This document shows positions 4,846-27,398 of a stretch of DNA of 37,523 bases, piece after piece. The notes under the pieces are model-generated. The model saw only the letters and a list, made by a program, of their open reading frames with translations. It had not been told where the DNA came from and searched no databases. Made by a program: the position numbers and the translations under genes. The DNA lies in IMG/VR virus record IMGVR_UViG_3300010392_000604, positions 1-37,523 of that record; one strand, written 5' to 3'. How positions within the stretch are numbered: the first letter of the stretch is position 1; every line of letters begins with the position of its first letter. Origin of the DNA: a virus.

Positions 4846-4849
4846 ACAA

Positions 4850-6840: not shown

Positions 6841-6857
6841 TTGTTACCCTCCTTCTG

Positions 6858-11289: not shown

Positions 11290-11557
11290 CGTACTCTTTA
11301 TCTCCTACAGGTGTAAACGGAAGAGGTGGATTGTTTTCACCGTAGTGACCGTACTCGTTGAAAGGTTGAACTGAAGCTGGATACGGGTCATCCTCAATTT
11401 CTACCTTAAAGTACTTCTTTAGAACGTACCCTAATGCTTCTTCTTCACCATTGAAACTTTGATTAACCTTCTGTCCGTCAAGGTATAGGTTTGTTTCAAA
11501 GTGAGTACAACACCCACATGGAGCTTCCCAGATGTTATCTTCTACACGAATTTTCAT
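11282..11557 (-). CDS. Small protein of unknown function
   Basis: A 91-residue protein with a Cys cluster near the start (C-G-C-C-T-H-F) and a Pro-rich C-terminal region. The ATG overlaps the stop of the upstream nuclease gene as TAATG, so it is probably translated by re-initiation. No family recognised. Confidence 0.65.
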   Translation of the reverse strand: MKIRVEDNIWEAPCGCCTHFETNLYLDGQKVNQSFNGEEEALGYVLKKYFKVEIEDDPYPASVQPFNEYGHYGENNPPLPFTPVGDKEYDV

Positions 11558-11922
11558 TAGTCTACCTTCTCTGAGTTAATTCTCATAAACTCCAACTGCA
11601 AGTAGTAGTCAAAGTCTACCACAGCAAGAGGTTTCTTGTGATTAGCTTTTACAACGAGAAGAGGTTCATACCCATTTGCATTCTCTTCTGCTTGTCCGTA
11701 GAGTTTGTAGATAGCCATCTCTTTGTGACTCTTGCATTCTACTGAGACAGGAAGCATGTCACGTGCAAAAGGTGAAAGCTGCACGTCTTCTCCTCCTGCT
11801 CCCATACTTGTGGACTTAACGTCCTCAGGAAGACAGCCCCAAGGCTTCATAAGCTCAATGAAACGGTCTCGAACGTATTGTTGTAGTTTACGGCCTTTGG
11901 CCTTAGCGCTTGATGTTTTCAT
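11557..11922 (-). CDS. PD-(D/E)XK-type endonuclease / resolvase-like protein
   Basis: This 121-residue protein starts with K-T-S-S-A-K-A-K-G-R-K-L-Q-Q and has P-E-D-V-K-S-T-S-M-G-A-G-G-E-D-V-Q-L-S, then V-S-V-E-C-K-S-H. The E-D and E-C-K elements fit the Mg-binding core of restriction-like nucleases. Phage members of this size usually act as Holliday-junction resolvases or single-strand endonucleases in recombination, like T7 gp3. It lies in the same operon as SSB, exonuclease and polymerase. Its ATG overlaps the previous stop as ATGA. Confidence 0.8.
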   Translation of the reverse strand: MKTSSAKAKGRKLQQYVRDRFIELMKPWGCLPEDVKSTSMGAGGEDVQLSPFARDMLPVSVECKSHKEMAIYKLYGQAEENANGYEPLLVVKANHKKPLAVVDFDYYLQLEFMRINSEKVD

Positions 11923-12227
11923 TTAGTTTCCTCTAGTGCTGCTTTGATGCGGACAGTGATTCTACTGTAAGCCTCTTCCAAACCAGAAACCTCCCCTTGT
12001 ATGCTAACAATGCAGTCATACAGAATGTCCTCTATATCATTAAATAGGCCATCAGTATTCACCCCATCCGCGTTTTCACGGGCTTGGCGGTAGGCGGTGA
12101 GGGCGTCGCGTTCATCCTTGCATTCGTGGATAGCTTGCCGAGAAACAAGCACCATAATGCCTTCTTCGTCAGCCTGTTGGTAGTTCATCAGGGCGTCCCA
12201 TGCCGCCTCTTTGCTTGTGTCAGTCAT
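11919..12227 (-). CDS. 102-residue helical protein with a GC-rich patch
   Basis: I choose the ATG at 12227 because GGAG lies 6-9 bases upstream; an upstream extension to 12302 would overlap a better small gene. The product is helical and acidic (A-Y-R-Q-A-R-E-N-A-D and E-L/D-I-E-D-I-L-Y-D). Bases around 12065-12130 are visibly richer in GC than the surrounding DNA, so part of the gene may be a recent acquisition. No family recognised. Confidence 0.65.
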   Translation of the reverse strand: MTDTSKEAAWDALMNYQQADEEGIMVLVSRQAIHECKDERDALTAYRQARENADGVNTDGLFNDIEDILYDCIVSIQGEVSGLEEAYSRITVRIKAALEETK

Positions 12228-12357
12228 TGGGGTTCTCCTGTTTACAGATTTGAATTTCTTTTCCAATCCAGTCAGCACATCCGTCGTCGTCCAAGTCGGC
12301 ACCTAGAAGAAAAATAGCAAAGAGCATCCCTGTACAGAAGCATGCTAGTTCACTCAT
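12220..12357 (-). CDS. 45-residue one-TM protein
   Basis: The frame starts at ATG 12357 in a TAATG overlap with the upstream exonuclease and ends overlapping the next ATG by 8 bases. The product has an N-terminal hydrophobic segment (C-F-C-T-G-M-L-F-A-I-F-L-L-G) followed by an acidic stretch (A-D-L-D-D-D-G-C-A-D-W), so it is a likely small inner-membrane protein. Confidence 0.55.
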   Translation of the reverse strand: MSELACFCTGMLFAIFLLGADLDDDGCADWIGKEIQICKQENPND

Positions 12358-13217
12358 TACGTAACCTCGTCTACTTTAGGTTCCCGAACAACTTCAGTGA
12401 GAAACCGTGGTTTTCCTGCGTACAAGAAGGTCCGTAGACCCGGCCAGCACATGTCTTTGAAAGCACAGTAAGAACACTGTGTATCCAGTTTCATGTTACC
12501 AGACTTGCCGTCAGGAATAGAACTAAAACCCCGATCTGGCACCACCTCTGGGTTATTAACCGCTGCTTTGATGGCTTCAAACTCTTCTTCCTTGGTGTTG
12601 ATCTCATGTCCAAGGTCGTACATATCGAGACAAAGCTCACCGGAAACCTTGTTTACAACCAAGAAAGCTCCAAGCGAGGGATGGGAGTCGACTTCTGTTT
12701 GTGTTCTTCCTGCGTAAACATACGATGATAGTTGGGAGATGTAACCAAAGGGATCGTCATCCCGTAGACCCCCTGTTTTAAACTTGATAAAGGAGTAGGG
12801 ACTGGCTGATTTAACGTCAACTGTGATTCCGTCGATAACAGCATCTCGGTGTCCCTTAATACCCGCGACCTCCAAAGTATCTTGCATTCCTGCCACGTCA
12901 TGTCCGGCAGCGATTGCCAAGGATAGGATGAGATCTTCCAGAAGATCCCCGTAGAGAAATTTGAGGAGAGTGGAAGCCCGAAAAACTTCATTGTCATCAG
13001 GCTTGTTGATTGAGTACCAAAGCTTCCTCGTACATGAAGTGCCCATCCCACTGAGCCGGAGAGTTGGTTCTCTTTCTTCTCGTTCTCCACCCAGTCTACG
13101 CCACACCGTTGAAGACACTGACTCGGTGAAGAACTTGTGTACGGTTTCATCCCAACCTCCATTTCCCTCGATAACACTGTTGATGTCTTCTACAAGTGTT
13201 GAAATCTTTTTAGCCAA
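12357..13217 (-). CDS. Cas4/RecB-like PD-(D/E)XK exonuclease
   Basis: I place the start at TTG 13217, because GGGAG is seven bases upstream and the product begins M-A-K-K-I-S-T-L; a GTG at 13235 lacks a ribosome site. The 286-residue product has G-H-R-D-A-V-I-D-G, then V-D-V-K-S-A-S-P, then Q-L-S-S-Y, the nuclease core of the RecB/Cas4 superfamily. Cysteines at C-T-R-K-L-W-Y and C-S-Y-C-A-F-K-D-M-C could bind a 4Fe-4S cluster as in Cas4 and AddB. It probably degrades DNA ends for recombination or host-DNA recycling, analogous in role to T7 gp6. Confidence 0.87.
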   Translation of the reverse strand: MAKKISTLVEDINSVIEGNGGWDETVHKFFTESVSSTVWRRLGGEREEREPTLRLSGMGTSCTRKLWYSINKPDDNEVFRASTLLKFLYGDLLEDLILSLAIAAGHDVAGMQDTLEVAGIKGHRDAVIDGITVDVKSASPYSFIKFKTGGLRDDDPFGYISQLSSYVYAGRTQTEVDSHPSLGAFLVVNKVSGELCLDMYDLGHEINTKEEEFEAIKAAVNNPEVVPDRGFSSIPDGKSGNMKLDTQCSYCAFKDMCWPGLRTFLYAGKPRFLTEVVREPKVDEVT

Positions 13218-13314
13218 AGTAGTTCTCCCATACACGCGTAATGATAAAACCTAAGGCGGCTCCTACGAGGCCTCCCAATAAGGAAGCCCCGAGGAGAGTC
13301 AGAAAGAACATCAT
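13210..13314 (-). CDS. 34-residue hydrophobic membrane peptide
   Basis: ATG 13314 overlaps the previous stop as ATGA and the TAA overlaps the TTG start of the exonuclease. Almost the whole chain is one membrane helix (F-F-L-T-L-L-G-A-S-L-L-G-G-L-V-G-A-A-L) with small residues, ending in a charged R-V-W-E-N. The tight overlap on both sides supports real translation. Function unknown. Confidence 0.55.
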   Translation of the reverse strand: MMFFLTLLGASLLGGLVGAALGFIITRVWENYFG

Positions 13315-13580
13315 TTGCTGACAGGTTTCTTGTAGGTCACACCTTTACGAGGCCAAACGAAACCCCCTGTCGGGTAAACAAGCCAGACACAGAAGAGACC
13401 TAAAAAAGGAACTACGTTTGAGATAAGGTTAGAAAACCAAGAAGGTTTATGCGCAAAGCTTCCCTCGTACATCAGACCGGGAAATTCATCAGCAACACCA
13501 CCTGTTTCTTTAGCCATAGTGAGGGCGTAAGAGATTAGGACAAGGACAACGTAAACTACGGTATAAGCGGAAGTATCCAT
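13311..13580 (-). CDS. Two-TM membrane protein of unknown function
   Basis: This 89-residue protein has hydrophobic segments at residues 6-22 (Y-T-V-V-Y-V-V-L-V-L-I-S-Y-A-L) and about 55-70 (V-V-P-F-L-G-L-F-C-V-W-L-V-Y) and a basic C-terminus. AAGGAG precedes the ATG. It is encoded between SSB and the exonuclease and may anchor something to the membrane, but nothing proves a role. Confidence 0.65.
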   Translation of the reverse strand: MDTSAYTVVYVVLVLISYALTMAKETGGVADEFPGLMYEGSFAHKPSWFSNLISNVVPFLGLFCVWLVYPTGGFVWPRKGVTYKKPVSK

Positions 13581-13591
13581 GTTTTTACTCC

Positions 13592-14068
13592 TTAGAACGG
13601 CAGACGGAGGTCAGGGGAACCACCTTCGTCGTCACCTTCAGGACGTTCGTACTCGACAAGGTCCAGAACCTGAACACCCATCATTCGAGTACCTTTGCCC
13701 ATTTTTGTCTCGTAGACCTCGAAGGCAACTTTGACTTTGGATCCATTACCAATGAGTTTGGATGTATCCCAGAGTTCGCCTTCAGCGTCCTTGATAACAG
13801 GGGCACCACCAAGAGCAGGGATACTTGTGTGTTTGTGTTTACGTTTGAACTTAATACTCAGACCATCGTCAGTGATACGGGGTTTGAGACGGGAACCGGA
13901 GGCACTCAGTGCGTCAAGGTTCTCTTTGTCAAGGATTACGTCGATTGTATATGCACCGTCGCAGTCACCGTAGAAACCTTCGTGCATGTCTCGGTTGTTC
14001 TCGTAGAGACGAGGATACATCGCGATACCTTCAACGGTGTGTACTGTGCTTTTCGGTTTGTCTGTCAT
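13592..14068 (-). CDS. Single-stranded DNA-binding protein (gp2.5-like)
   Basis: This 158-residue protein looks like an OB-fold SSB: alternating strands through K-V-K-V-A-F-E-V-Y-E-T-K and M-M-G-V-Q-V-L-D-L-V, and an acidic C-terminal tail (E-G-D-D-E-G-G) ending in an aromatic residue (L-P-F). That tail is typical of T7 gp2.5 and bacterial SSB, where it recruits polymerase and helicase. Its place between polymerase and nuclease genes supports the call. Sequence similarity alone would not separate it from other phage SSB families. Confidence 0.8.
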   Translation of the reverse strand: MTDKPKSTVHTVEGIAMYPRLYENNRDMHEGFYGDCDGAYTIDVILDKENLDALSASGSRLKPRITDDGLSIKFKRKHKHTSIPALGGAPVIKDAEGELWDTSKLIGNGSKVKVAFEVYETKMGKGTRMMGVQVLDLVEYERPEGDDEGGSPDLRLPF

Positions 14069-14084
14069 GTTCAGTTAGTTTCCT

Positions 14085-14222
14085 TTAGATGTCTTTAGTA
14101 GTTAGAGTTTGGTAACGAGCTTCCCAAGAATCTCGCATTAGACCTTTGCAGTCGTCCATTAGGTCTTTCATAGTTGGTGTTGCTGTTCTGTAGTATTCTT
14201 TAAACCACTCTTCGAAGGCCAT
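14085..14222 (-). CDS. 45-residue protein directly behind an internal promoter
   Basis: ATG at 14222 with AAGGAA nine bases upstream and TAA at 14085-14087. The product (M-A-F-E-E-W-F-K-E-Y-Y-R, then D-S-W-E-A-R-Y-Q) is amphipathic and probably helical. It is the first gene after the leftward promoter at 14244-14273 and is followed by SSB. No family recognised. Confidence 0.65.
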   Translation of the reverse strand: MAFEEWFKEYYRTATPTMKDLMDDCKGLMRDSWEARYQTLTTKDI

Positions 14223-14243
14223 AGTGTTGTTCCTTACATATTA

Positions 14244-14273
14244 ATATTAACATGGTTTAGTTGGTGGGGTCAA
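14244..14273 (-). promoter_or_regulatory. Internal leftward sigma70 promoter ahead of the SSB gene
   Basis: Reading leftward, TTGACC (14273-14268) is followed after 18 bases by TAATAT (14249-14244). The spacer end and -10 region (AACCATGTTAATATTAA) resemble the promoter at 999-1027. It would boost the 45-residue gene, SSB and downstream nucleases inside the long operon. Confidence 0.65.
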
Positions 14274-14461
14274 GAAGTTTCGAAAGGAATTTCTTCAATT
14301 TCTGTGTCATGTCCTTGGTGTTTCTCGTAAGCTCCGTTATACTCCCTGTAGAAACGTTCAGCACTTTTGGCTACATCTAGTGTCGGGTGGGCTGAGACTA
14401 GGCTTCGGTAATCTTCCCCTCCAACTGGGTACGTGTGTATTAGGATATACACAGAATTCAT
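14270..14461 (-). CDS. 63-residue protein of unknown function
   Basis: I use the ATG at 14461, which overlaps the previous stop as TGATG, rather than the TTG one codon earlier. The product has a hydrophobic start (S-V-Y-I-L-I-H-T-Y) and a helical middle (V-A-K-S-A-E-R-F-Y-R-E-Y). No family recognised. Confidence 0.65.
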   Translation of the reverse strand: MNSVYILIHTYPVGGEDYRSLVSAHPTLDVAKSAERFYREYNGAYEKHQGHDTEIEEIPFETS

Positions 14462-14784
14462 CAAATTTTCTCCAACACAGTGATTTCTCGTACTTCAATA
14501 GACTCGATGGAATGGATACCCCACTCATGGTAGGGACAAACCTCAGAGAACACCTCTAGTTCCTCCTGTGTGATAACTCCTTTATAAGCGTCTTGGTACG
14601 CAGCTGAATGGTCAATGTTGTCCCAGTTGTGTTTGTAGGGGTTCTCCCTTCCGTATTTCAAGACTTCTCGGCCTACCTTCAAGATAGTGTCTAGGTTTTC
14701 TTCCACCCAACCTTTAATTTCAGTCTCTTCTGTTATATAATCTGCGTCGTTTGTGTCAGCGGTGATCTTAAGGTATTTACCCAT
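14461..14784 (-). CDS. 107-residue acidic protein of unknown function
   Basis: The ATG overlaps the polymerase stop as TAATG. The product is acidic, with a helical first half (W-V-E-E-N-L-D-T-I-L-K-V-G-R-E-V-L) and a beta-like end (S-I-E-V-R-E-I-T-V-L). It might be a polymerase partner because of coupling, but nothing in the sequence shows it. Confidence 0.68.
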   Translation of the reverse strand: MGKYLKITADTNDADYITEETEIKGWVEENLDTILKVGREVLKYGRENPYKHNWDNIDHSAAYQDAYKGVITQEELEVFSEVCPYHEWGIHSIESIEVREITVLEKI

Positions 14785-16727
14785 TAGTGTGTCTCCAACC
14801 AGTTTTTTCCAATGTCTGTGCTACCAGCGAGAGGACAGAAGATATTCAAGTCCAAACCAGCTTGCACAATTGAGTTACGTTGTATCTCTCCAAGTCTTTC
14901 AGCCATATCCAGAGAACCAGGACACTCTGTCTGCCATTCATCGTGGACGAAATCCACTTGCTTGTAGAGAATCTTCTCTTCGTCAGCCCATTTACGCCAC
15001 AGTCGGTTAGCGTGTTTCATAACGATTGCTTCCCCGTTCTGTAGATAACCTGCCAACATCAAGTGTTCACTGTTTTGAACAACTTTACGTCCGTCAAGAC
15101 CCTCGAAGTAGCCCCTACGAGCATCGCGAGGGATAAGCCCTGTCTTCAGTTTCTTGAGTTTAGGAAGACTCTCAAGGAAGTTATACTCAGCCTCCTTTGC
15201 TTTCTTGTTGGTGGTTCTTAGGTTACGAGCCATCAAGGCTGTCCCTGAACCCAGGAGCCAACTGTAAATGAAAGTCTTGGCGTCATCCCGTGTGATGTGG
15301 TCAAGAGCCAAAGCTTTTTTGTTTACATTGTGAATATCCGTCAGGTCTTCTTTACGACCAGAGTGGATAGCGTGGGCATACTCCTCATCTTTCATGTAGT
15401 GAGCAAGGATACGAAGCTGGATACCTTCAGCATCTGTGCCGACAAGGTACTTGTCCTCGTCTACGCACCAAAGGGATCGTAGTGTCGCATCGTACTCTTT
15501 CTTGATTTCTTTAACTGCGTTGTCTACTTGACCGTGGAAAGGGCTGAAGACGTTAGCTTGATTAGGGGCAGAGTGAGACATCCGATGAGTCCAAGCTCCG
15601 ATGTTCCAGAACTTACCGTGGATACGGCCATCCTCTTGGACACAACCTAGCCACTCCTCAAGGGAGGAACGACGTCCTTCTAGGGTCAGCCACTGAGCAA
15701 GAAGTTTAGCCCCTTCAGGAGCGCTGTCAGGGACTGTCTGAAGGTTTGTCTCGTCTACCTTCCATCCGTAATACTCGAAGTACTCCTTCTTGTCTTGGTA
15801 GGCTTCAGGCGTCATCAAGGTTTTACCCCACATATCCCCGGGTTTACACCGACCAAACTTTTGGTGTGTCTTTGTCTTGACCACTGGTTCCCAACCAGCT
15901 TCCCATAGTTTGTCGATACGGTGCTTAGTACTACCCGGGTTGAATGTTTCGTAGTCGTAACATACTAGCTCAGTCCCCTCAAGTTTTGTCTTGGGGTAAC
16001 GTCCCATAGCATTCTCAGTGGTACTGTAGAAAGAACCATCTTGTTTGATCCGGAACTGGACACGATTAACCTCGGTCAACCACGGAGGCCAACACTCTTG
16101 GAACTTAGCTTCGAGTTTCGCCATTCGCTCCTTAATAGAAGACAGGAGTTCTTCGGCTTTCTCTTTGTTAAACTTGAAGCCATTCTTCGACATATCCTCG
16201 TTGATGAGAACCATGTCGTGTTCTAGTCGCATAGCTTCCTTCCAAGCGTCATCGTGGATGTAACGCTCGTACATCTTGTAGATGCGCTCGTTAACTACAA
16301 CGTCTTGGACACAGTAGTTCACCATCTCCAGAGAGAGTTTAGAGAAGTCATTGAAGACAGTCTTAGGAACCCCTAGGTACTGACCAAGTTCAGCCAAAGA
16401 ATGAGTGGAAAAACCAGAATAGTTAACCAAACGGGAAACAACAAAGGTATCCACCACCTTAGACTCTTCAATGCCGGCTCCAAGCACACGGTTAACAACA
16501 GGAACGTCGAAAGACAAACCATTATGGGCCACCCAGAGATCGACATCAGGAACAAAGCTAACAAAGTCATCGAAAGTACCCACCCAGTTGGAGTGGATCT
16601 TCACATCAGACCAGACTTTTGTTTCTTTGTCTAACTCTTTTGTGACGATACACCAAATTGTGTTAACCCCCCGGTGTCCTTCCCGGGGGATCAACTCTGT
16701 TTCGATATCAAAGATGATTATCTTCAT
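14784..16727 (-). CDS. Family A DNA polymerase with 3'-5' exonuclease
   Basis: This 647-residue replicative polymerase resembles T7 gp5. The exonuclease domain (about residues 1-180) has F-D-I-E-T-E, N-G-L-S-F-D and Y-C-V-Q-D. Polymerase motif A is D-A-E-G-I-Q-L-R-I-L-A-H, motif B is R-D-D-A-K-T-F-I-Y-S-W-L-L-G, motif C is V-H-D-E near residue 595. At the site equivalent to E. coli Phe762 there is Tyr, as in T7. At the site equivalent to Tyr766 there is Leu, which is unlike E. coli and T7. It should copy the genome together with the primase-helicase encoded just upstream. Confidence 0.95.
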   Translation of the reverse strand: MKIIIFDIETELIPREGHRGVNTIWCIVTKELDKETKVWSDVKIHSNWVGTFDDFVSFVPDVDLWVAHNGLSFDVPVVNRVLGAGIEESKVVDTFVVSRLVNYSGFSTHSLAELGQYLGVPKTVFNDFSKLSLEMVNYCVQDVVVNERIYKMYERYIHDDAWKEAMRLEHDMVLINEDMSKNGFKFNKEKAEELLSSIKERMAKLEAKFQECWPPWLTEVNRVQFRIKQDGSFYSTTENAMGRYPKTKLEGTELVCYDYETFNPGSTKHRIDKLWEAGWEPVVKTKTHQKFGRCKPGDMWGKTLMTPEAYQDKKEYFEYYGWKVDETNLQTVPDSAPEGAKLLAQWLTLEGRRSSLEEWLGCVQEDGRIHGKFWNIGAWTHRMSHSAPNQANVFSPFHGQVDNAVKEIKKEYDATLRSLWCVDEDKYLVGTDAEGIQLRILAHYMKDEEYAHAIHSGRKEDLTDIHNVNKKALALDHITRDDAKTFIYSWLLGSGTALMARNLRTTNKKAKEAEYNFLESLPKLKKLKTGLIPRDARRGYFEGLDGRKVVQNSEHLMLAGYLQNGEAIVMKHANRLWRKWADEEKILYKQVDFVHDEWQTECPGSLDMAERLGEIQRNSIVQAGLDLNIFCPLAGSTDIGKNWLETH

Positions 16728-16746: not shown

Positions 16747-17109
16747 TTACCAAGGCGTCCCCGTCACTTCATACTCTTCCTCTGACGGCATACTGTCGAT
16801 GTTCTGGTCGGCCCAGAGACAATACTCATACAAAGTACTTGAAACTACTTCACTCTCGTAGCATTCTCCGAAATCAGACTCAAGGGAATGGGAACCCCAG
16901 ATGAAAGAATGGTCAAGGAGATCTGGATCAAAGGACCCACCCACACAGGCATCCAGTACGTCTTGGATGAGTTCTCGGAGACTACCACAGTCAGTGATCT
17001 CACCCGGCCAACACCGGTACACCTCTGCCAAACTAATCTTTTCTTTCGGAGGCACAGAAGGTTCTTTTCCTTCTACTTTACAGACGAACTTTACAAAACC
17101 TTTAGCCAT
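16747..17109 (-). CDS. KGF-motif paralogous protein
   Basis: This 120-residue protein starts M-A-K-G-F-V-K-F-V-C-K-V-E-G-K-E-P, the same N-terminal motif as the products at 25829-26140 and 26137-26460. It also shares the later pattern D-P-D-L-L-D-H-S-F-I-W-G-S. The C-terminal half is acidic. The ATG overlaps the previous stop as TAATG. It lies far from the other two members, between polymerase and primase-helicase. No known family recognised. Confidence 0.72.
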   Translation of the reverse strand: MAKGFVKFVCKVEGKEPSVPPKEKISLAEVYRCWPGEITDCGSLRELIQDVLDACVGGSFDPDLLDHSFIWGSHSLESDFGECYESEVVSSTLYEYCLWADQNIDSMPSEEEYEVTGTPW

Positions 17110-19271: not shown

Positions 19272-19454
19272 CTACCCTTTCGTTAGATTCTTTATTTCAT
19301 TCTCGTCTTCACCCAAGATAATTCTCTGAACGTCCCCCAAGGTAAAGTCCTTGCCTATTGTGGTGTAAATAACTTCGAGGCAATCCTGACAGTAGACGTC
19401 CACAGGTGGGTCGTACATCAGAGCGCCCGGTCGGTCGCAACACTTGCATCTCAA
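19272..19454 (-). CDS. 60-residue zinc-finger-like protein, TTG start
   Basis: Start TTG at 19454 overlaps the previous stop as TTGA, with AGGA eight bases upstream. Two Cys pairs (C-K-C-C and C-Q-D-C) about 20 residues apart suggest a zinc knuckle. The C-terminal part is helical and charged. It precedes the primase-helicase and may be co-translated with it. Function unknown. Confidence 0.65.
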   Translation of the reverse strand: MRCKCCDRPGALMYDPPVDVYCQDCLEVIYTTIGKDFTLGDVQRIILGEDENEIKNLTKG

Positions 19455-19717
19455 TGTTCTGTTCCTTTGATGATAGTAGTCTCCTTCTCTTTGAAGAACC
19501 GTGCAATTCCTTTGAGGTTTTCCATTGGGTCTGCCTTTTTGAAAATACGTCTAAAAGAGTACTGGAATGCCCCTCTAATAGGCGTACCAGAAAACGTAGG
19601 GTCAATAGCTTGAACAACGCTGGTTTCACCTACTTCTAGAACCTTGAACTTTTCACCAGCAGTACTCTCTACAATATCACCAACTTCAGCCCCGAGTTTT
19701 TGGAGTGACGTACCCAT
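19451..19717 (-). CDS. Small V-G-D barrel-like protein with KG-ARFF tail
   Basis: The ATG at 19717 gives 88 residues. The body (E-V-G-D-I-V-E-S, F-K-V-L-E-V-G-E) looks like a small beta barrel. Near the C-terminus it has N-L-K-G-I-A-R-F-F-K-E-K-E, almost identical to the end of the neighbouring product at 19719-19982. This resembles the N-terminal KGF motif of other proteins in the operon. No function recognised. Confidence 0.68.
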   Translation of the reverse strand: MGTSLQKLGAEVGDIVESTAGEKFKVLEVGETSVVQAIDPTFSGTPIRGAFQYSFRRIFKKADPMENLKGIARFFKEKETTIIKGTEH

Positions 19718-19718
19718 C

Positions 19719-19982
19719 CTATAGATCCTTTCCTTTGAAGAAACGAGCAACACCTTTGAGGTGCTTGTGACTCTTTTTCAGAGGTTTGAATTCTCTCAGG
19801 AGAAAAGAGTGGTCCCACAAACCGCAGTTTACACCATCCTTAGAGAGGCTAGCGGAGACCAGGTTTGTCCGGTAAACAGTGAAGACGGCCCCGGGTACGT
19901 ATTTAGACGAGAGCCCCCGGTCACTGGATACAAACTCGATTTCATCACCTACCTTAAGGTCGTCTGTCCAATTCCTATCCAT
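19719..19982 (-). CDS. Paralogue of the neighbouring V-G-D protein
   Basis: I use ATG 19982, which follows GGAGG by five bases and overlaps the GGCT-like stop by 8 bases, giving 87 residues. The body has L-K-V-G-D-E-I-E-F-V and ends H-L-K-G-V-A-R-F-F-K-G-K-D-L. Shared layout with 19451-19717 indicates tandem duplication. Its position next to the GGCT-like gene ties it to the amidoligase cluster. Confidence 0.7.
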   Translation of the reverse strand: MDRNWTDDLKVGDEIEFVSSDRGLSSKYVPGAVFTVYRTNLVSASLSKDGVNCGLWDHSFLLREFKPLKKSHKHLKGVARFFKGKDL

Positions 19983-20607
19983 TGTATCCTCCGTAGCTGT
20001 AGAATTTCTCATCCGAGTACATCGGAGAAAAGTCCAGATGAGGTTTGATCTTGTACGCCATATCATGAGACACGAAATCAAAGAGTTCGTCCATCTCGTT
20101 GAACCACGTGTAAGCCTGTGTGGTCGGGCTGTTGGGGTCCAAAGAACGGACCTTAACATCAATGAGGCTGCGTTCCCAACTGTACCCATTGTCGTAGTAC
20201 TCATCGAGAAGGTGGAGAACCTCAAGACTCACCTCACAGACACGGCCCTTGACTGGTTTGAGGTCACTGATGAAGTAATCAGGAAGGTCGACGTACTCAA
20301 GATCGAAAGGATCTTCCAGACATGCCGCAGGGTATGGGTTCGTGTGATCTCCCTTGATGTTATACCAAGGCAGGTACTCGTGTGCAGTGCAGGCCGCATG
20401 GTGAAGGCCACGGTACCCGTCGATACACTGTTGGTTTGTCAGGTCAAGATTGGCCTTCATGGCCGAGAACTCTTGGTTATCGTCCCACAGGAAGATCTTG
20501 ATGGGCTCGTTGTTGAAACGAAGAACAGGAGCATCGTAGGTACGAGACTCGTTAAGGTTTGTCCGGATGATATCCAGAAGATTTGGTTTCTTCACAGTTT
20601 TAGCCAT
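19975..20607 (-). CDS. GGCT/AIG2-like protein (second copy)
   Basis: A 210-residue protein. The middle segment V-K-G-R-V-C-E-V-S-L-E-V-L-H-L-L-D-E-Y and Y-S-W-E-R-S-L-I-D-V-K-V, then A-Y-T-W-F-N, matches the core of gamma-glutamylcyclotransferase-like folds, which cleave gamma-glutamyl or related amide bonds by cyclisation. The usual Y-G-S-N start is replaced by F-L-W-D-D-N, so activity is uncertain. The ATG overlaps the glutamine-amidotransferase stop as TAATG, which places it in one translational unit with that gene. Confidence 0.7.
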   Translation of the reverse strand: MAKTVKKPNLLDIIRTNLNESRTYDAPVLRFNNEPIKIFLWDDNQEFSAMKANLDLTNQQCIDGYRGLHHAACTAHEYLPWYNIKGDHTNPYPAACLEDPFDLEYVDLPDYFISDLKPVKGRVCEVSLEVLHLLDEYYDNGYSWERSLIDVKVRSLDPNSPTTQAYTWFNEMDELFDFVSHDMAYKIKPHLDFSPMYSDEKFYSYGGYNG

Positions 20608-21566
20608 TAGCTTTCGCTTCCTTCTTGCTTCACCTTGTTCAAAGCAGTGATAAGACGTTGACGTTCATTCGTCAGGTATTGTGCCTTCTTGTGAAGAAGG
20701 TAGTTGCTCTCGATCAACTCTTTGATGAGCAGTGTTGCATTCTCTGCGTCATTCCCTGAATTAATGATAGCATCCAGAGTCTCATCTGTAAAGAGGTGAA
20801 CATCACGGATACTGTTGAGATTGAACTTCTCAGTGAACCGTCGTGTTTGACTGTCCTTCGCGTACCCTTTCGGGATAGGTCGAGTCGATGAAGTTTTCGT
20901 AGAGGAGACCCCCGAAGAATTCCCACCATGAATCACTTTCGGGGGGTTGTACTTTTTTACGCGGTGACTCGGATTGAAGGAGTAGGTATTGGAGTAGTAC
21001 CAGCCTTCTTCCTTTTTACCACCGTTGCCCTCCTCGTTACACAATAGAGAGTTGCCTTCGCTGTCAAAGAAAGTCAGGACACTTGCAGCAGAGAGTTGAT
21101 CCTCCAAAAGCTCTTTCACAAAAGGATCGGAAAGAAGTTCCTCGGGTTCCATACCCTTCACCAGACGCTTGAAGAGAGGACGCACATAGGTACGAACAAA
21201 GTTCCGTGTGTCACTCTCATCGCCAGCAGCTTTGAGCTTGTAGCGGTTAAGTGTACCGTTGTGACACATACGGAGGTCAATGCCATCCGTCTTCTTCTCA
21301 AGGATAGGGAACGGGTGAGCATTCCGGAGGTTTGTCGCCCCTGCAGTGGTATACCGCAGGTGAAGCATCAAATCCTTGTCAATCAGTTCCTCGTTCACCA
21401 AACGGTAAAGGCTCTCAGGGTCAGGTTCTTCAGGGGAACGAATGACCTCAAGGCCCTTGTCACCTTGGAAAGCAAGCCCGTACCCATCAGGATTGTTCAG
21501 GATAGCGCTCTTGAACTTGTCAAAAGGAATCTCGAAGTTGGGTTTACGTTGGATGATGAGACACAT
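20607..21566 (-). CDS. Class II glutamine amidotransferase (Ntn hydrolase)
   Basis: A 319-residue protein starting M-C-L-I-I, so removal of Met would expose the N-terminal Cys nucleophile. H-L-R-Y-T-T-A-G, N-A-H-P-F and M-C-H-N-G-T-L are the glutamine-binding and oxyanion segments of class II enzymes such as GlmS and PurF. These release ammonia from glutamine for an acceptor domain, which is absent here; the C-terminal 130 residues are low-complexity then helical. Neighbouring amidoligase and ATP-grasp genes may use the ammonia or the amide. Could instead be a standalone amidohydrolase. Confidence 0.85.
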   Translation of the reverse strand: MCLIIQRKPNFEIPFDKFKSAILNNPDGYGLAFQGDKGLEVIRSPEEPDPESLYRLVNEELIDKDLMLHLRYTTAGATNLRNAHPFPILEKKTDGIDLRMCHNGTLNRYKLKAAGDESDTRNFVRTYVRPLFKRLVKGMEPEELLSDPFVKELLEDQLSAASVLTFFDSEGNSLLCNEEGNGGKKEEGWYYSNTYSFNPSHRVKKYNPPKVIHGGNSSGVSSTKTSSTRPIPKGYAKDSQTRRFTEKFNLNSIRDVHLFTDETLDAIINSGNDAENATLLIKELIESNYLLHKKAQYLTNERQRLITALNKVKQEGSES

Positions 21567-21568
21567 GG

Positions 21569-22912
21569 TTAGGCTTTCTGGAACAGGTTGAGAAGGGAGG
21601 AGTACTTGTGGTCATTCTTGATGACGTACTCTTTGAAGTTTTCGATGAAGGAACGACCGAAGCAACGAACACCGATACGGTCAGTAAACTCAAAGATAGC
21701 ATCGACGTGGTCGAGACAGCGAATGATGTGGTCAACGTCGAAGATGCCTTGGAAGAGACGAACTTCAACAGTCGGACCAGAGCTGAAGTGACACACAGAC
21801 CGCCCCGAAGTGTGGATAGTACGCTTCAAGCGACGAGCCAAAGTGTAGCCCTCGTAGTTGCGGTCGATCTGACAGTACTGGTTGCCCCGGTAGTCTTTCC
21901 GACGAGACACTTCTGTGAAGTGATCAACGGAAGTCTTGTCCCACTGGTTCCAAGCAGCAACAAACTTACGGCTGTGGAAGTGGCTCAGGAAGTGGCTACG
22001 AGACACGTGGATGTGAATACCGTTGTTCAGGTCGTCAGAACAGTCGAACACGTCGGAGATATTCATGTCACGTTTGGCGCACAGAGTCTGGAGCTTCTCG
22101 AAGAAAATCTTCCAGTTCTGACGAAGGTAACGGCGAGAACAAGGAACAGTGACGATCTCTATTTTGTTACGGTAACAACCCGACACAGAAGAGTCACTCT
22201 TGAAGATGAAGAAAGGTTCCTGAACAGGTTCAACCTCGCAGACGATACGTTGAATTTCCTTGGTGGAAAGCTTCGTGCTGACTTCAACTTCCATGCCATA
22301 CTGTGTCACTTCGTTCTTGCTCTCACGAGAAAGAGTCCGGAAGAAACCAAAAGCTTCGGGTTCCATCTTGAAGCTGTAGTTGTGAAGTTTGGTCCACTTA
22401 GAGTGGATTCCTGTCGTATCCACCGAGTCGACCGGGTGTGAAGACGTCGGACTTGCGTCAATGTAGCCACCCCAACCGAAACTCAAGAGGAAAGCAGGTT
22501 TAATGGCATCCTCTTGTTCGTCGTCCACAAGGAGGATAGGTACACCATCACCCGAGGAGCGAGAAGTGTTTCGATGAAGCTGGAAAGGATGGTCACTGAG
22601 GACGATGTAGGACGAAAGCCAATCCCGGTCGACTGTGCTGATATCGTCACGTTCAAACCAACGGCGGATCCAATCACGGGAAGACACAGTGAGTTGAGGG
22701 AAAAGTGCGTCACGGTTTGCCATCCACCAGTCGAGAACCGCTGCTTTTGTCTGGAAACCCATCTGTTCGATAGTGAACCGTGGGTCGTAGAAACCGTGGA
22801 CGTAGAAAGTCACTTCTTTCCCGGTGTGGTCCACAAAGAAGTAGCTCCGAGCGTTACCCGGTACCTCAAAAGTGTAGATTGCGTCTTCAGCTTCAAAAGT
22901 TACGTGTGGCAT
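21569..22912 (-). CDS. Putative amidoligase (COOH-NH2 ligase, glutamine-synthetase fold)
   Basis: A 447-residue protein. The C-terminal 250 residues follow the Amidoligase_2 pattern: Y-G-M-E-V-E-V (205-211), K-S-D-S-S-V-S-G with E-I-V-T-V-P (238-257), N-G-I-H-I-H-V-S (297-304) and T-V-E-V-R-L-F-Q-G (381-389). These carry the metal- and ATP-binding acids, His and Arg of the glutamine-synthetase-like ligases predicted to join a carboxylate to an amine. The first 200 residues are an unrecognised domain. It lies between the GATase and GGCT genes, as in the phage operons predicted to modify peptides. Confidence 0.82.
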   Translation of the reverse strand: MPHVTFEAEDAIYTFEVPGNARSYFFVDHTGKEVTFYVHGFYDPRFTIEQMGFQTKAAVLDWWMANRDALFPQLTVSSRDWIRRWFERDDISTVDRDWLSSYIVLSDHPFQLHRNTSRSSGDGVPILLVDDEQEDAIKPAFLLSFGWGGYIDASPTSSHPVDSVDTTGIHSKWTKLHNYSFKMEPEAFGFFRTLSRESKNEVTQYGMEVEVSTKLSTKEIQRIVCEVEPVQEPFFIFKSDSSVSGCYRNKIEIVTVPCSRRYLRQNWKIFFEKLQTLCAKRDMNISDVFDCSDDLNNGIHIHVSRSHFLSHFHSRKFVAAWNQWDKTSVDHFTEVSRRKDYRGNQYCQIDRNYEGYTLARRLKRTIHTSGRSVCHFSSGPTVEVRLFQGIFDVDHIIRCLDHVDAIFEFTDRIGVRCFGRSFIENFKEYVIKNDHKYSSLLNLFQKA

Positions 22913-22929
22913 GTCAGTAGTCTCTCTAT

Positions 22930-23448
22930 CTAAGGTTTCTTGTTCAGATTCAGAGTCGAAGTCCAGTCGAACTCTTCTTTGTCGTTAAGACCAACAGGTC
23001 TGGTGTAGCGAAGGGAGGAGGAGTTGAGTTGAAGGTAAATCCAACACTCGTGTTCGTTACCCTCGTTGTCGAGAGTAATGATAGTAGTCCGGGTGTAGTG
23101 ATCCGGGTGTCCTTCGAGAATGTCCAGCTCCCAGAAGCAATCCTCATTGGGGATAGACCAGACGTCACCACGGACAGGGTTGAACAACTCGTCTACCGTG
23201 TAGGCGTGTGGGAACTCCTCACAGACTGTCTCTTTTGTGTAGACGTAGGGGCAACCTACGTTACGCATCAGGTAAGGCTCCTGAGTCACGAAGGAACCCA
23301 TGTGAGTGGCACCATGTCCGGTAAGGATACGGGAGTTACCGAACCCTTTACGGAGTGTGCCATAGGTAAAGACAAGACCACACTTGTTGATCTCATTCTT
23401 GTAATCTTCCCTTTGTTCAGGGCTAAGACTCATTTGGAAGTATCTCAT
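22930..23448 (-). CDS. Gamma-glutamylcyclotransferase-like protein (GGCT/AIG2)
   Basis: A 172-residue protein with L-V-F-T-Y-G-T-L-R-K-G near residue 25, the nucleotide-like binding loop that defines the family. G-D-V-W-S-I and L-D-I-L-E-G-H-P-D-H-Y-T-R follow, whose Glu is the expected catalytic acid. Family members cleave gamma-glutamyl or epsilon-amine linkages with release of a cyclic product. In this cluster it could trim or reverse an amide bond made by the ligases. The start at 23448 has a poor ribosome site and may depend on upstream translation. Confidence 0.85.
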   Translation of the reverse strand: MRYFQMSLSPEQREDYKNEINKCGLVFTYGTLRKGFGNSRILTGHGATHMGSFVTQEPYLMRNVGCPYVYTKETVCEEFPHAYTVDELFNPVRGDVWSIPNEDCFWELDILEGHPDHYTRTTIITLDNEGNEHECWIYLQLNSSSLRYTRPVGLNDKEEFDWTSTLNLNKKP

Positions 23449-23455
23449 TTTTCTC

Positions 23456-23484
23456 TTGACAACCTCTCGATTAAAGGTTAAAAT
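23456..23484 (+). promoter_or_regulatory. Sigma70 promoter antisense to the leftward operon
   Basis: TTGACA (23456-23461) and TAAAAT (23479-23484) are separated by 17 bases and point rightward, against all surrounding genes. It is followed by the same 28-nt element as the promoter at 999-1027, which makes chance unlikely. Confidence 0.65.
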
Positions 23485-23512
23485 TAACTTAGGGTTTGCC
23501 CGGGGTGATATA
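23485..23512 (+). repeat. 28-nt promoter-proximal repeat, copy 2
   Basis: Identical to 1028-1055 at 26 of 28 positions. On the leftward strand it also forms the coding part of an 11-codon frame and one arm of an RNA stem. Confidence 0.85.
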
Positions 23513-23524
23513 TGCTTTAAGCAT
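23489..23524 (-). CDS. Possible 11-residue leader peptide
   Basis: ATG at 23524 follows a strong GGAGG with only three bases between, and the frame (M-L-K-A-Y-I-T-P-G-K-P, stop) ends before the GGCT gene. It lies inside an RNA stem region, a layout used by attenuators. The short Shine-Dalgarno spacing and tiny size make it uncertain. Confidence 0.25.
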   Translation of the reverse strand: MLKAYITPGKP

Positions 23525-23556
23525 CTACCTCCTCAGGATAAACCTACCCCGAACCC
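23492..23556. other. Stable imperfect inverted repeat with nested hairpin
   Basis: GGGTT (23492-23496) and CGGGGT (23501-23506) pair with AACCC (23552-23556) and ACCCCG (23546-23551), giving 11 pairs with a 4-nt bulge. Inside the loop, ATGC (23512-23515) pairs with GCAT (23521-23524). Read leftward it is followed by a T-rich stretch, so it may terminate or attenuate the operon before the GGCT gene. Read rightward it would fold the start of the antisense transcript. Confidence 0.6.
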
Positions 23557-23640
23557 AACGATAAGAACAAAGAAGTAGGACATGATGAGCCAACCAAGGT
23601 TAGCCATGTTGACACAGAAAAAGAATTCTTCTCCACACAT
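23533..23640 (-). CDS. 35-residue one-TM peptide
   Basis: ATG 23640 lies one base after the previous stop, with GGAGAG five bases upstream, and TGA at 23533-23535. The second half is a membrane helix (W-L-I-M-S-Y-F-F-V-L-I-V-G-F-G-V-G). Function unknown; the tight junction supports translation. Confidence 0.55.
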   Translation of the reverse strand: MCGEEFFFCVNMANLGWLIMSYFFVLIVGFGVGLS

Positions 23641-23641
23641 C

Positions 23642-24010
23642 TTACTCTCCTTTCAGTTCTTTGAGTTGATGTTTGATCACCTGTTGAATGTCGTTGAGGA
23701 TCTCTTGACCTGTCTCACTGGTGACAACAGCTTCGCCTGCTTCACTACCAGCAATGAGGTAGATCGTTTCCTTTGAGGGAACAAAGTGTGTGATGACGAG
23801 AAGGAAGAAGAAAACCGACCACACCCAACAGAACCCTTTGGGAACATCAACCATTTCCTCATAATCATTCTTGTTGAATTCGTAGAGACACTTCCAGAAC
23901 AGAAGGCCAAAACCACCGAGAACAGACACGATGAAACCAAGACCACCAAGAGAACTGGCTGCGTTGGGCAACACGTCTGCCAGATACAGAAACCAAGACA
24001 AATCATTCAT
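23642..24010 (-). CDS. Two-TM membrane protein common in phages
   Basis: This 122-residue protein has hydrophobic segments at about 20-40 (L-G-G-L-G-F-I-V-S-V-L-G-G-F-G-L-L-F) and 62-78 (W-V-W-S-V-F-F-F-L-L-V-I-T-H-F-V). A soluble tail follows, with P-S-K-E-T-I-Y-L-I-A-G-S-E and a helical end. I have seen this tail pattern in other phage membrane proteins of unknown role. It sits between GGCT and ATP-grasp genes and could anchor the modification system to the inner membrane, which is inference only. Confidence 0.7.
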   Translation of the reverse strand: MNDLSWFLYLADVLPNAASSLGGLGFIVSVLGGFGLLFWKCLYEFNKNDYEEMVDVPKGFCWVWSVFFFLLVITHFVPSKETIYLIAGSEAGEAVVTSETGQEILNDIQQVIKHQLKELKGE

Positions 24011-24575
24011 CAGATTTCTCCTCAGCTTGAGTCATACGGACGACACGATAAGGTTCGTGTTGAGACAGTCCCCATTCTTCACACCACTTATTGGCGGCAC
24101 TCTCTGATGTGAAAGTAATGCCCGGTTGGATTCCGTTGTTGAGGATAACGATCCACACGTCCTCAACCTTTTCTTGCAGAGGTACGAGGTCAAACCCAGA
24201 CTCTCCACCCCCTGAGAGGAACGCTCCGTGGCTGTCATGGGCACTCAGGTTTCCCTCTGGCCCCATCGAAACAACAGGCTTGCCCTTGTCGTTCCCATCC
24301 ACACACAGAATGCGGACAGGCTGGGTCGGAGTGTGACGATAGGCCCATTCCTTGTCGAGTGTGATGATAGTTCCAGCACGACGGATGAGTTCCCACCTGC
24401 CGAAATTACCGTTACCACACACCACTCCTTTTGAGTTAACCCATCTTCCATTCTCTTGCCTCTCCCAGCGATAAAAGACATGGATAGAGCTTTGGAAATC
24501 AAAAACGTCTGGGTGGTAGCGGAACACATCCCCCTTCTGAGGGTTCCACTCCTTCATTGTCTTGAGCTCAGGCAT
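24003..24575 (-). CDS. 190-residue protein with N-terminal K-G-D barrel motif
   Basis: The N-terminal part (W-N-P-Q-K-G-D-V-F-R-Y-H) is like the V-G-D segments of the proteins at 17109, 19451 and 19719. The middle is Gly-rich (S-G-G-G-E-S-G-F-D-L-V) and the C-terminal 45 residues look like a separate small alpha/beta unit (F-T-S-E-S-A-A-N-K-W-C-E-E-W). Its ATG overlaps the previous stop by 8 bases. No known family recognised. Confidence 0.68.
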   Translation of the reverse strand: MPELKTMKEWNPQKGDVFRYHPDVFDFQSSIHVFYRWERQENGRWVNSKGVVCGNGNFGRWELIRRAGTIITLDKEWAYRHTPTQPVRILCVDGNDKGKPVVSMGPEGNLSAHDSHGAFLSGGGESGFDLVPLQEKVEDVWIVILNNGIQPGITFTSESAANKWCEEWGLSQHEPYRVVRMTQAEEKSDE

Positions 24576-24795
24576 TGGTGTTTTCCTTTTTAAACTGTTC
24601 TTTCAGGAGGTTGTAAAGTTCCTCCGAGATTTCAACTTCTGCTGTTGAGCCGTAGTCTTCCAAACTATAGAAGAACTTACCGTCTTTCTTGAAAATCTCA
24701 AGAACACCATAGTAGTTCTCGATGAAAGTGGATTGAAAGGCTTCAGTCTGACCAGCTTTGACCCTCCACCCCGCAGACTCTACAAGGTTTTTCAC
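24568..24795 (-). CDS. 75-residue protein, GTG start
   Basis: GTG 24795 overlaps the ATP-grasp stop as GTGA. The product is mixed alpha/beta with a charged C-terminal helix (L-Y-N-L-L-K-E-Q-F-K-K-E). Translational coupling suggests a partner of the ATP-grasp protein. No family recognised. Confidence 0.62.
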   Translation of the reverse strand: MKNLVESAGWRVKAGQTEAFQSTFIENYYGVLEIFKKDGKFFYSLEDYGSTAEVEISEELYNLLKEQFKKENTNA

Positions 24796-25836
24796 ATTCC
24801 TTCTCCTTCGTTGTTCTGGGTTGCGTAATGGTCCTTAACCGCTGGGTGGATATACTTCCGCCAGCCGGTAGCGTCAGGGCTGAGAGACATACGCTCTTTC
24901 CCGTGGTCAGCCATGTAGGCGAAACAGTGGGCCATACACTTCTGACGATAGGAGACAGACCCATCGGACAACAGAGGGAGAGACGGAGCGCTGTTCATTT
25001 CGATGACATACGCACGACCATTCTCGTCCACCATCACATCCACCCCAGAGAAGTCGAGGTCAGGCACATGTTTGAAGGCTTCAACAGCCACACGGCAAAC
25101 CTCCATCGGCCAGTCACCCCAGTTGACCACATCGAAGCGACCACCTTGGGCCACATTCCAAGCCACTGCACTGGGGTCGTCAGGGGTCTTCCTTGCAACA
25201 GTAGCAACCCGACCAGACACAACGTACACCCGGTATTCAGCGACTTTGTTGATCAATTCAGAGGCATACCAGCCACCGGAGAACACACGAGAGTTGTTGT
25301 TGACAACATTAAGAAGGTCTTCCAACCCATTGACAACAAACAAGTTCCTACCCTGAGCGTGTGTCCGAGGACGAAGCACCAACGGCTGCTCGCCACTGAT
25401 CCAAGAGGTTTCGTTGTCGCTGTCGCCTTTGATGATAGTAGTCGGGATCAAGGTAGGGTCCATCTCTCTGAACATCTTGCGGCACCCGAGTTTGTCTCCT
25501 ACGATGGAGATTGCCCGGGATGGATTCACTTGTTTGCTCAGAGGAACCCCTGTAGGGGATGTACACCCCCACCTCACGACAAGGGTTGAATCCTCCAAAG
25601 CGGCCATCGCTCTGGTATCTTGAAGACGATCGCTCCGGACACACGACGCCTTCTGACCCAAAGACAAGATAGCTGACGTGGACCGGGGAGTTCTCCCATC
25701 TTGGTTCAAAAAGGAAGTCATTCCCCGGATCGACCCAGCCCCGAGTTTTTTCCTGCGAAGAAATGTAATCATGTTTGTACTCTTTCTCTTTTTTCCCGTC
25801 GAGTTTGTTTTGAAACCTGACGAAACCTCTACCCAT
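24792..25836 (-). CDS. ATP-grasp ligase split by an apparent +1 frameshift
   Basis: The C-terminal part (frame ending at 24792) carries ATP-grasp features: D-K-L-G-C-R-K-M-F, L-V-L-R-P-R-T-H-A-Q-G-R-N, E-Y-R-V-Y-V-V-S-G-R and the Mg-binding V-M-V-D-E-N-G-R-A-Y-V-I-E-M-N-S-A-P. Family members join a carboxylate to an amine through an acyl phosphate. The natural start, ATG 25836, overlaps the previous stop by 8 bases but reads in another frame (M-G-R-G-F-V-R-F-Q-N-K-L-D-G). Skipping one base in the C4 run (25685-25688 on this strand) joins the frames as W-E-N-S-R-S-T-S-A-I-L, giving 347 residues. It may be programmed, a mutation or a base-call error. Confidence 0.8.
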
Positions 25837-26140
25837 TGTCCTGTCTCTGCCAACTGCGGATGATATCACGCGCTTTAGCAGACTCATCACAAGTGAGTTG
25901 ACCCAAGGCTATTCCAATACGCAACTTGACATGGATATCGTCCCAAAAACTATAGCCTTGATCGGTTGAGGACCACCTGAAGCCGTCGAGAAGTGCCTCG
26001 CTGTCGATATGGTCAACGCGAGTTTCCATAAGTCTTCGCCAGAGCCGGAAGGTATAACCGGGTTGAGGGTATTCGTCATCTTTAGGTTCTACTACCTCTC
26101 GGCCCTCTAGCTTGCGTTGAAACTTAGCGAACCCCTTCAC
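25829..26140 (-). CDS. KGF-motif protein, GTG start
   Basis: I choose GTG 26140, which overlaps the previous stop as GTGA with GGAGG upstream, giving 103 residues. It starts M-K-G-F-A-K-F-Q-R-K-L-E-G-R-E and shares with its upstream neighbour L-M-E-T-x-V, G-F-x-W-x-S, Q-G-x-x-F-W and a final W-Q-R-Q. Tandem duplication is clear. An ATG at 26152 or 26164 would add a tail lacking in the relatives. No known family. Confidence 0.72.
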   Translation of the reverse strand: MKGFAKFQRKLEGREVVEPKDDEYPQPGYTFRLWRRLMETRVDHIDSEALLDGFRWSSTDQGYSFWDDIHVKLRIGIALGQLTCDESAKARDIIRSWQRQDNG

Positions 26141-26460
26141 CGCTCCCTCCATTGGCGTTGCCAATCCTCGATGTATTCCAATGCCTTCTGGAAATCAGGG
26201 TCATCTGAAGGTTCACGTCCTGCGTTCCTGTTCTGCAACTCGCGGTAGAACTTACGCCAGAAAGCAGCCCCTTGTGGTGAAGAGTGCCAAACGAAACCCC
26301 TGTTGAGGAGTTCATGTGACACACTGTTGACAGGAGTTTCCATGAGTTGATCCCAGTATGATCCTGCGTTATTGTCCGGGAGACTGGACAAAGGTCCCAA
26401 GGGAACTGGAGGTTCTTCGCCACGCAGTTTCATTTGGAAGGTAACAAAACCTTTAGCCAT
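26137..26460 (-). CDS. KGF-motif protein
   Basis: A 107-residue protein with start M-A-K-G-F-V-T-F-Q-M-K-L-R-G-E-E-P, almost the same as the product at 16747-17109. The body shares G-F-V-W-H-S-S-P-Q-G-A-A-F-W and a C-terminal W-Q-R-Q with the next gene. GAGGA precedes the ATG. Together with 25829-26140 and the N-terminus of the ATP-grasp gene it forms a run of three adjacent genes with one shared N-terminal motif. Confidence 0.75.
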   Translation of the reverse strand: MAKGFVTFQMKLRGEEPPVPLGPLSSLPDNNAGSYWDQLMETPVNSVSHELLNRGFVWHSSPQGAAFWRKFYRELQNRNAGREPSDDPDFQKALEYIEDWQRQWRER

Positions 26461-27321: not shown

Positions 27322-27398
27322 TGGCGACCACGGTAGGACTCGAACCCACAACCAAAGAAATAGAAGTTCCTTGCTCTATCCTGTTGAGCTACGTGGCC
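27322..27398 (-). tRNA. tRNA-Arg (anticodon UCU)
   Basis: The leftward strand folds as a full 77-nt cloverleaf. The acceptor arm is GGCCACG with CGTGGTC (one G-T pair), the D-arm is GCTC/GAGC, the anticodon stem is AGGAA/TTCTT with loop CTTCTAT, and the T-arm has loop TTCGAGT. The 3' CCA is encoded. The anticodon TCT reads AGA and, less well, AGG codons, which are used in the phage genes here and are often rare in gammaproteobacterial hosts. Confidence 0.93.

Follow-up and report, generated by a model that had tools for sequence, protein, structure and literature searches.

Iyer et al. reportedly predicted phage amidoligase systems in 2009, and in the accessible literature no substrate, product or role has since been shown for these clusters. 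Here we analyzed such a module in a 37.5-kb IMG/VR fragment of a marine phage (record IMGVR_UViG_3300010392_000604; the whole stretch of 37,523 nucleotides is called the window below). An ATP-grasp ligase, an amidoligase, a class II glutamine amidotransferase (GATase) and two GGCT-like proteins are encoded there beside small proteins that bear a common terminal peptide, the tag. We propose, at a probability of about 0.4, that this is an early-region phage module with amide chemistry whose target would be the ends of the phage's own tagged small proteins.

The same enzyme classes occupy the same early site, upstream of the primase-helicase gene, in clusters of the phiEco32/LUZ24/CW02 type (PMC3890496). 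Their ATP-grasp, GATase, amidoligase and GGCT proteins are homologous to those of the window's layout, which we call type I; type I differs from them in that it has no COOH-NH2 ligase, an extended amidoligase N terminus, another fixed order and a degenerate second GGCT (GGCT2). The closest cultured-phage amidoligase and GATase that we found are those of Methylophilales phage MEP401 (GATase 29%, E 1e-13), the amidoligase being PF12224 by the authors' annotation (PMC10580990). Neither an ATP-grasp nor a GGCT gene was found in MEP401, and a GGCT is added in some relatives. The RimK, LysX-type and TTLL amino-acid ligases are the best solved-structure profile matches of the window ATP-grasp, but they are distant from it and their operon partners differ. 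Graspetide (microviridin) systems likewise place an ATP-grasp enzyme beside small proteins with a common short recognition helix, the microviridin motif being PFFARFL (PMC7823629); however, the tags of the module phages stand at either terminus, and no graspetide ligase was among the PDB profile matches.

Enzymes of the module

The module comprises two ATP-dependent ligases of different folds, a glutaminase-type GATase, and an intact and a degenerate GGCT, in a fixed order:

24792-25772, minus strand: ATP-grasp ligase, RimK-like/R2K-like, 326 aa (MITFLRRKKLGAGS...), by Pfam, PHROG and PDB profile
22930-23448, minus strand: GGCT1, a GGACT-like gamma-glutamyl(amine) cyclotransferase, 172 aa (PF06094, 4e-13)
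21569-22912, minus strand: amidoligase of glutamine-synthetase (GS) fold, 447 aa, by AlphaFold2 model with Foldseek and invariant residues
20607-21566, minus strand: class II GATase, 319 aa, with an N-terminal Cys2 (PF13230, 8e-10)
19975-20607, minus strand: GGCT2, a type-I-specific GGCT-fold protein without the catalytic Glu and YGTL motif

All five genes lie on the minus strand (span 25772-19975), and the primase-helicase and DNA polymerase come next. A sequence-only reading had already described these five enzymes as one leftward unit, and our analysis confirmed it at or near these coordinates. Fold searches with Foldseek and with profiles against the PDB supported the core enzyme families and folds, and catalytic residues are retained in four of the five enzymes. 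All five are 100% identical to copies on a 48.7-kb contig (L001). The window terminase shares 80% identity with an uncultivated Cobavirinae genome and ∼66% with Lentibacter, Celeribacter and Roseobacter podoviruses; judged by these identities, the phage is a Zobellviridae-type podovirus.

The ATP-grasp gene starts at the ATG at 25772 rather than at the TTG of the longest open reading frame. Its product matched R2K_3 (4e-7), RimK (6e-5) and also R2K_2 in Pfam, as well as phrog_2599 (E 4e-17). When an 18-sequence profile was compared with the PDB, the RimK-type alpha-L-glutamate ligase 7qyr came first (3e-10), followed by weaker matches to the S6-modifying RimK, LysX-type proteins and TTLL6. The core constellation is intact, with E179, R181, D245, E258 and N260 invariant in the 18 homologues. 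A pair of conserved RAGNYA-domain lysines marks the R2K clade; the R2K matches of the window protein lie above the Pfam cut-off, and Arg134 stands at the apparent strand-2 position in all 18 members of the sequence alignment. Searches of isolate phages by tblastn returned a single distant match for this enzyme, in Melvirus PQ867853, and no close relative of the window amidoligase; one type I ATP-grasp and one type I GGCT2 sequence had no tblastn match among 50,697 phage records.

The window amidoligase had no Pfam match at E<1, hence none to the PF12224 (Amidoligase_2) model; 9 of its 17 alignment partners matched PF12224 (best 1e-7). Its AlphaFold2 model (predicted local distance difference test, pLDDT, 69; low in 105-199) gave significant Foldseek matches in the PDB exclusively to the GS superfamily (glutamine synthetases, YbdK and GMAS; E 3e-5, probability 1.0), with a TM-score of ∼0.3 over the whole chain. 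E208, E210, D240, E252, H300, H302, R338, E383 and R385 are invariant in 17 proteins, and the pattern of metal, ATP and substrate residues, ExE/K-D/E/HxH/R/ExR, holds with few or no exceptions across 16-17 sequences. An N-terminal extension is carried by the type I amidoligase. In some type I phages, a shorter second amidoligase-like gene with GFEWE, HxH and IEYR motifs stands ahead of the main one:

L037, 5648-6511: second amidoligase-like gene
L038, 6674-7543: second amidoligase-like gene
L040, 11300-12202: second amidoligase-like gene
L045, 2936-3868: second amidoligase-like gene

In the GATase, C2, R71, H102, N103, G104 and D119 are invariant in 11 homologues, which gives the Cys, HxR, NG and D motifs. 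GGCT1 has gamma-glutamylamine cyclotransferase (GGACT, 1vkb) as its nearest solved relative (4e-15 with a 15-member profile), and all 15 homologues keep Y29, G30 and L32 of the YGTL loop and the catalytic residue E112. GGCT2 matched PF06094 below threshold (E 0.0017), and a profile comparison with GGCT1 gave 78% probability. Its best Foldseek matches were GGACT/GGCT structures; the model has a pLDDT of 56 and is therefore usable at the fold level only. In all eight aligned members an FLWDD-like segment replaces YGTL and a YY.N-like one replaces LEG. The earlier suggestion that both GGCT proteins trim or reverse the link thus fits GGCT1, whose motif is intact, and fails for GGCT2, since the catalytic Glu and YGTL motif are absent from every homologue. 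Judged from its sequence, GGCT2 is probably a binding or structural subunit.

Recurrence and layout of the module

We compared module-bearing phages that, for type I, are divergent and uncultivated. A scan that started from the GATase led to L012 (13.7 kb), with ATP-grasp, GGCT1, amidoligase, GATase, GGCT2 and helicase genes in the same order as in the window. A scan from the ATP-grasp led to 22 further loci, where amidoligase and GATase accompany it in 20 and a GGCT does so in 17. The five-gene set was found in seven lineages, including that of the window, with a rearrangement in one (L037), and because it recurs in this way it is not a chance association. The loci fall into three layouts:

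Type I (window, L012, L030, L038, L040/L043, L045; L037 rearranged): ATP-grasp, GGCT1, one or two amidoligases, GATase, GGCT2
Type II (L032-L034, L039, L041, L042, L044; phiEco32, LUZ24, CW02): with COOH-NH2 ligase
Type III (L035, L036): COOH-NH2 ligase, ATP-grasp, amidoligase, GATase, GGCT

OM43-phage-like contigs have an amidoligase and a GATase, some with a GGCT too. No type I locus gave a hidden Markov model (HMM) match to the COOH-NH2 ligase (PF14395-like). Amidoligase, class II GATase, ATP-grasp and GGCT stand together upstream of the primase-helicase, as in the phiEco32/LUZ24 type, and by its sequences the type I module is a variant of that predicted system. Its fixed order, N-terminally extended amidoligase and degenerate GGCT2 are new. 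For the four core enzymes we encountered neither a failure of fold matching, nor loss of catalytic residues, nor missing co-occurrence; these results support the tie that the sequence-only reading drew to the amidoligase predictions of Iyer et al. and to a phage operon that would form peptide or amide bonds.

Three further genes of the window are interleaved between those for ATP-grasp and GGCT1:

23642-24575, minus strand: 122-aa membrane protein (phrog_3878) and 190-aa protein, between ATP-grasp and GGCT1
24568-24795, minus strand: 75-aa protein

None of the three was found with the module in the other type I phages. Separately, distant groupings of ATP-grasp, GATase and COOH-NH2 ligase genes occur in L116 and L117 (with amidoligases too in L117), in metagenome-assembled genomes (MAGs) labelled Proteobacteria and Thaumarchaeota; these are possibly proviruses or cellular homologues.

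Tags on small proteins and other features of the module phages

The small genes that concern the tag in the window are as follows:

26137-26460, minus strand: A1, small protein with N-terminal tag MAKGFVTFQMKLRGEE
25829-26140, minus strand: A2, paralogue of A1, immediately upstream of ATP-grasp; N-terminal tag (GTG)KGFAKFQRKLEGRE
25780-25836, minus strand: A3, left-over tag start MGRGFVRFQNKLDGKKEK that overlaps the 5' region of ATP-grasp
19719-19982, minus strand: C1, small protein with C-terminal tag HLKGVARFFKGKDL
19451-19717, minus strand: C2, small protein with C-terminal tag ENLKGIARFFKEKE
16747-17109, minus strand: A4, third paralogue of the A family, next to the DNA polymerase gene; N-terminal tag MAKGFVKFVCKVEGKEP

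A1, A2 and A4 are mutually paralogous, the proteins beside ATP-grasp being ∼100 aa long; A1 and A2 are 37% identical, so that the small paralogous proteins of the sequence-only reading are real. An A-family HMM found homologues directly upstream of ATP-grasp in L037, L038, L040, L043 and L045, a sub-threshold one in L030 and none in L012. The short peptide is common to the N termini of A1, A2 and A4 and the C termini of C1 and C2. Many otherwise different small proteins of related phages (mostly 60-150 aa) bear it at one end, and an unsupervised comparison of protein ends with shuffled ends recovered it. Its consensus in types I and III is [TKS]-G-[FIM]-[AGTV]-x-[FW]-[ILV]-[RK]-[KRD]-x-[ED], with Gly2, Phe6 and the acidic position 11 near-invariant. 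These tags are amphipathic, with a mean moment of 0.55 (shuffles, 0.34), and their average net charge is positive.

A position-specific scoring matrix (PSSM) built from type I instances detected 7 and 10 tagged proteins in two type III contigs outside its seed; seven type II contigs and eight phages that were controls or already known had none. When the PSSM was rebuilt more loosely with type III instances included, G010, G017 and CRP-4 gave one match each. Identical tag residues in types I and III are encoded by codons about as alike as codon usage predicts, and the tag is therefore conserved at the protein level. We rejected a DNA repeat or a Shine-Dalgarno artefact as its source, given this codon divergence and the persistence of type II tags where the Shine-Dalgarno sequence follows the stop. 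Two degenerate DNA patterns of the tag, run over viral contigs, found only three module-bearing contigs, all already known; the scan thus showed specificity and gained no new lineage.

A 160-codon frame that overlaps ATP-grasp (window 25348-25836) opens with the tag-like peptide of A3. Of the 29 differences between the window and L002, 21 are at third codon positions of ATP-grasp, which shows that the frame downstream of the A3 tag start is not under selection; a tag joined to ATP-grasp by fusion or programmed frameshift was rejected, the frame not being maintained. Small proteins built of short repeats also occur, with VYGNAxVYG in L037 (4864-5256, 10867-11313) and REDGPAIEWADG in L045 (863-1276, 8236-8781), those of L037 bearing a C-terminal FVKFM tag.

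Applied to other module phages, the same tag procedure gave TSLEEY[ML]* in G015 and DEDLYY* in G016 (asterisk, stop). Shared codons of the latter reach 0.78 against 0.46 expected, and this tag may stem from recent duplication. In a phage contig from the bin of a Crocinitomix MAG, the tag is KPxxK[EAGS]DW[LM]*. In the cultured Salinivibrio phage CW02 (L119; 2206-10907), nine small proteins carry PxxLE[ED]N[V]*, or a near variant of it, at the C terminus; their genes are interleaved with those for GATase, COOH-NH2 ligase, ATP-grasp and GGCT, and several directly border module genes. The C-terminal tags of these other module phages often overlap the Shine-Dalgarno sequence of the next gene and persist where it lies after the stop.

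The gene directly upstream of ATP-grasp is tagged in 9 of 11 lineages. In pooled counts, tags were present on 30/46 small genes that border module genes, on 8/38 next to other large genes and on 28/68 next to neither (Fisher p 6e-5 and 6e-4, the former for the first class against the second). Tested over whole contigs, nine lineages had a combined p of 5e-5; these values are exploratory, because several test variants were run after the gene maps had been seen. No early small-protein tag set was found in 11 of 12 module-lacking phages: HTVC010P and ICBM2 showed only paralogous larger or tail-assembly proteins, and ICBM1 a weak unrelated trio. The exception is PQ867845 (L003), in which CobS/CobT stand upstream of the helicase in place of the module. 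Sixteen of its small proteins (60-74 aa) end in [VIL]PxEF[LFM]x*, and their genes alternate (4067-14989) with those for CobS, CobT, primase-helicase and DNA polymerase. ICP2 has CobT/CobS at the same position and no tag set.

Some features concern neither the enzymes nor the tags. A tRNA-Arg(UCU) gene is present in the window (27322-27398) and in the module-bearing L074, L085, L096, L119, L125, L126 and L127; this tRNA is probably common in phages generally, and we rejected it as part of the module, as only some module phages have it. In L012 (9125-11348) the DNA polymerase frame is in two parts with an HNH-like fragment between them, which suggests a homing-endonuclease insertion. A promoter and terminator scan was uninformative, with fewer sites than in shuffles.

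Proposed chemistry and target of the module

Both ligases would activate a carboxylate as an acyl phosphate, and the GATase would free ammonia or glutamate from glutamine for both; such an ammonia supply with two-step ligation is plausible. GGCT1 would remove a gamma-glutamyl (isopeptide) unit as 5-oxoproline, and the mark could therefore be turned over, while GGCT2 may bind the product or serve as a structural part. The target would be protein ends, most likely those of the phage small proteins with a shared terminal tag, whose genes border the module. RimK, LysX-type proteins and TTLL6 act on acidic protein tails; with such protein-tail ligases as kin of the ATP-grasp, the conserved Glu/Asp of the tags would fit tail modification. 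The most parsimonious of the new hypotheses, as yet unproven, is that these small proteins serve the module as substrates or as docking partners. The small proteins of the operon had been among the targets first suggested: the tagged ones are now a concrete candidate, whereas the interleaved 75-aa, 190-aa and membrane proteins were dropped because they are not conserved with the module. Overall, the earlier interpretation is partly supported.

Several observations weigh against tagged proteins as the target. phiEco32, LUZ24 and several other module phages have no tag set, nor has L012 within its 13.7 kb, and PQ867845 has 16 tagged small proteins with no module found; the link between tag and module is for these reasons associative and only suggestive. 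When adjacency was tested more strictly, per contig and within the early span alone, the combined p was 0.13 and thus not significant, and tagged genes also cluster among themselves. The type I/III tags are helix-like (GFAKFIKRIE) and those of type II lie at the extreme C terminus (LEENV, KEDWL, LEEYM), a difference that leaves a single recognition mechanism not obvious. Finally, PFFARFL scored by the tag PSSM showed a weak likeness (p 0.009 against random 7-mers, 0.05 against its own shuffles), weak grounds for equating the tag with this microviridin motif.

Alternatively, the module might alter the host envelope, the tagged proteins being unrelated; it would then act on the stem peptide of peptidoglycan or on some other amide of the cell wall, perhaps as a block to superinfection. 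This has been suggested for phiEco32 in a passage of PMC10580990 that cites Iyer et al., enzymes of the GS-fold, ATP-grasp and GATase classes are all known in wall peptide chemistry, and the early position of the module fits host takeover. We nevertheless consider it unlikely: inspection of the enzymes noted no secretion signal, the ATP-grasp profile matches RimK/LysX-type proteins (E 3e-10) better than D-Ala ligases (4e-4), and no co-conserved wall-specific gene was seen in the examined loci. A metabolic role, in which a glutathione-like gamma-glutamyl cycle, with a glutaminase among its parts, makes a small peptide or recycles nitrogen and glutamate, seems to us just as doubtful. Phage ZRK32, which bears the same four activities, was proposed to aid nitrogen metabolism (PMC10945688), the folds mirror those of GCS (amidoligase), glutathione synthetase (ATP-grasp) and GGCT, and the amidoligase model matches YbdK too. 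However, the catalytically divergent second GGCT and the extra ligases of several phages exceed a simple cycle, and the best solved relatives of the ATP-grasp are protein-tail ligases, with glutathione synthetase absent from the PDB matches.

RimK glutamylates ribosomal protein S6, a precedent for a module that acts on one particular host protein, of the ribosome or RNA polymerase, to the benefit of the phage, with the tagged proteins as targeting adaptors or bystanders. R2K-type phage ATP-grasps have been predicted to modify host proteins (PMC4431377). The loci give no pointer to a particular host protein, however, and we regard this explanation as improbable. Equally improbable is a membrane-targeting role for the type I/III tag, as an amphipathic helix of the MinD/FtsA kind with no direct link to the ligases: its amphipathicity, its average positive charge and its resemblance to the C-terminal membrane helix of MinD speak for this, but the near-invariant Gly2, Phe6 and acidic position 11 exceed what such a helix needs, and the type II tags are short, acidic and unlike one.

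The lineage-specific terminal tags would be what is really new here; a limited full-text search, with most subscription papers outside it, found no report of shared lineage-specific end tags on diverse small phage proteins. With the degenerate-GGCT variant and, above all, the tagged proteins beside ligases, the question of the substrate can be put to a direct test, also in the cultured CW02. In its fullest form, which we hold to be a rather long shot, the proposal is one of phage-run protein tagging: 3-16 small early proteins would carry a lineage-specific tag (KGxxxFhRKhE, PxxLEENV*, KPxxKEDWL*, TSLEEYM* or DEDLYY*), and the adjoining module would recognize it and add or remove an amide-linked residue. 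If this is true, one enzyme set would control many phage effectors at once.

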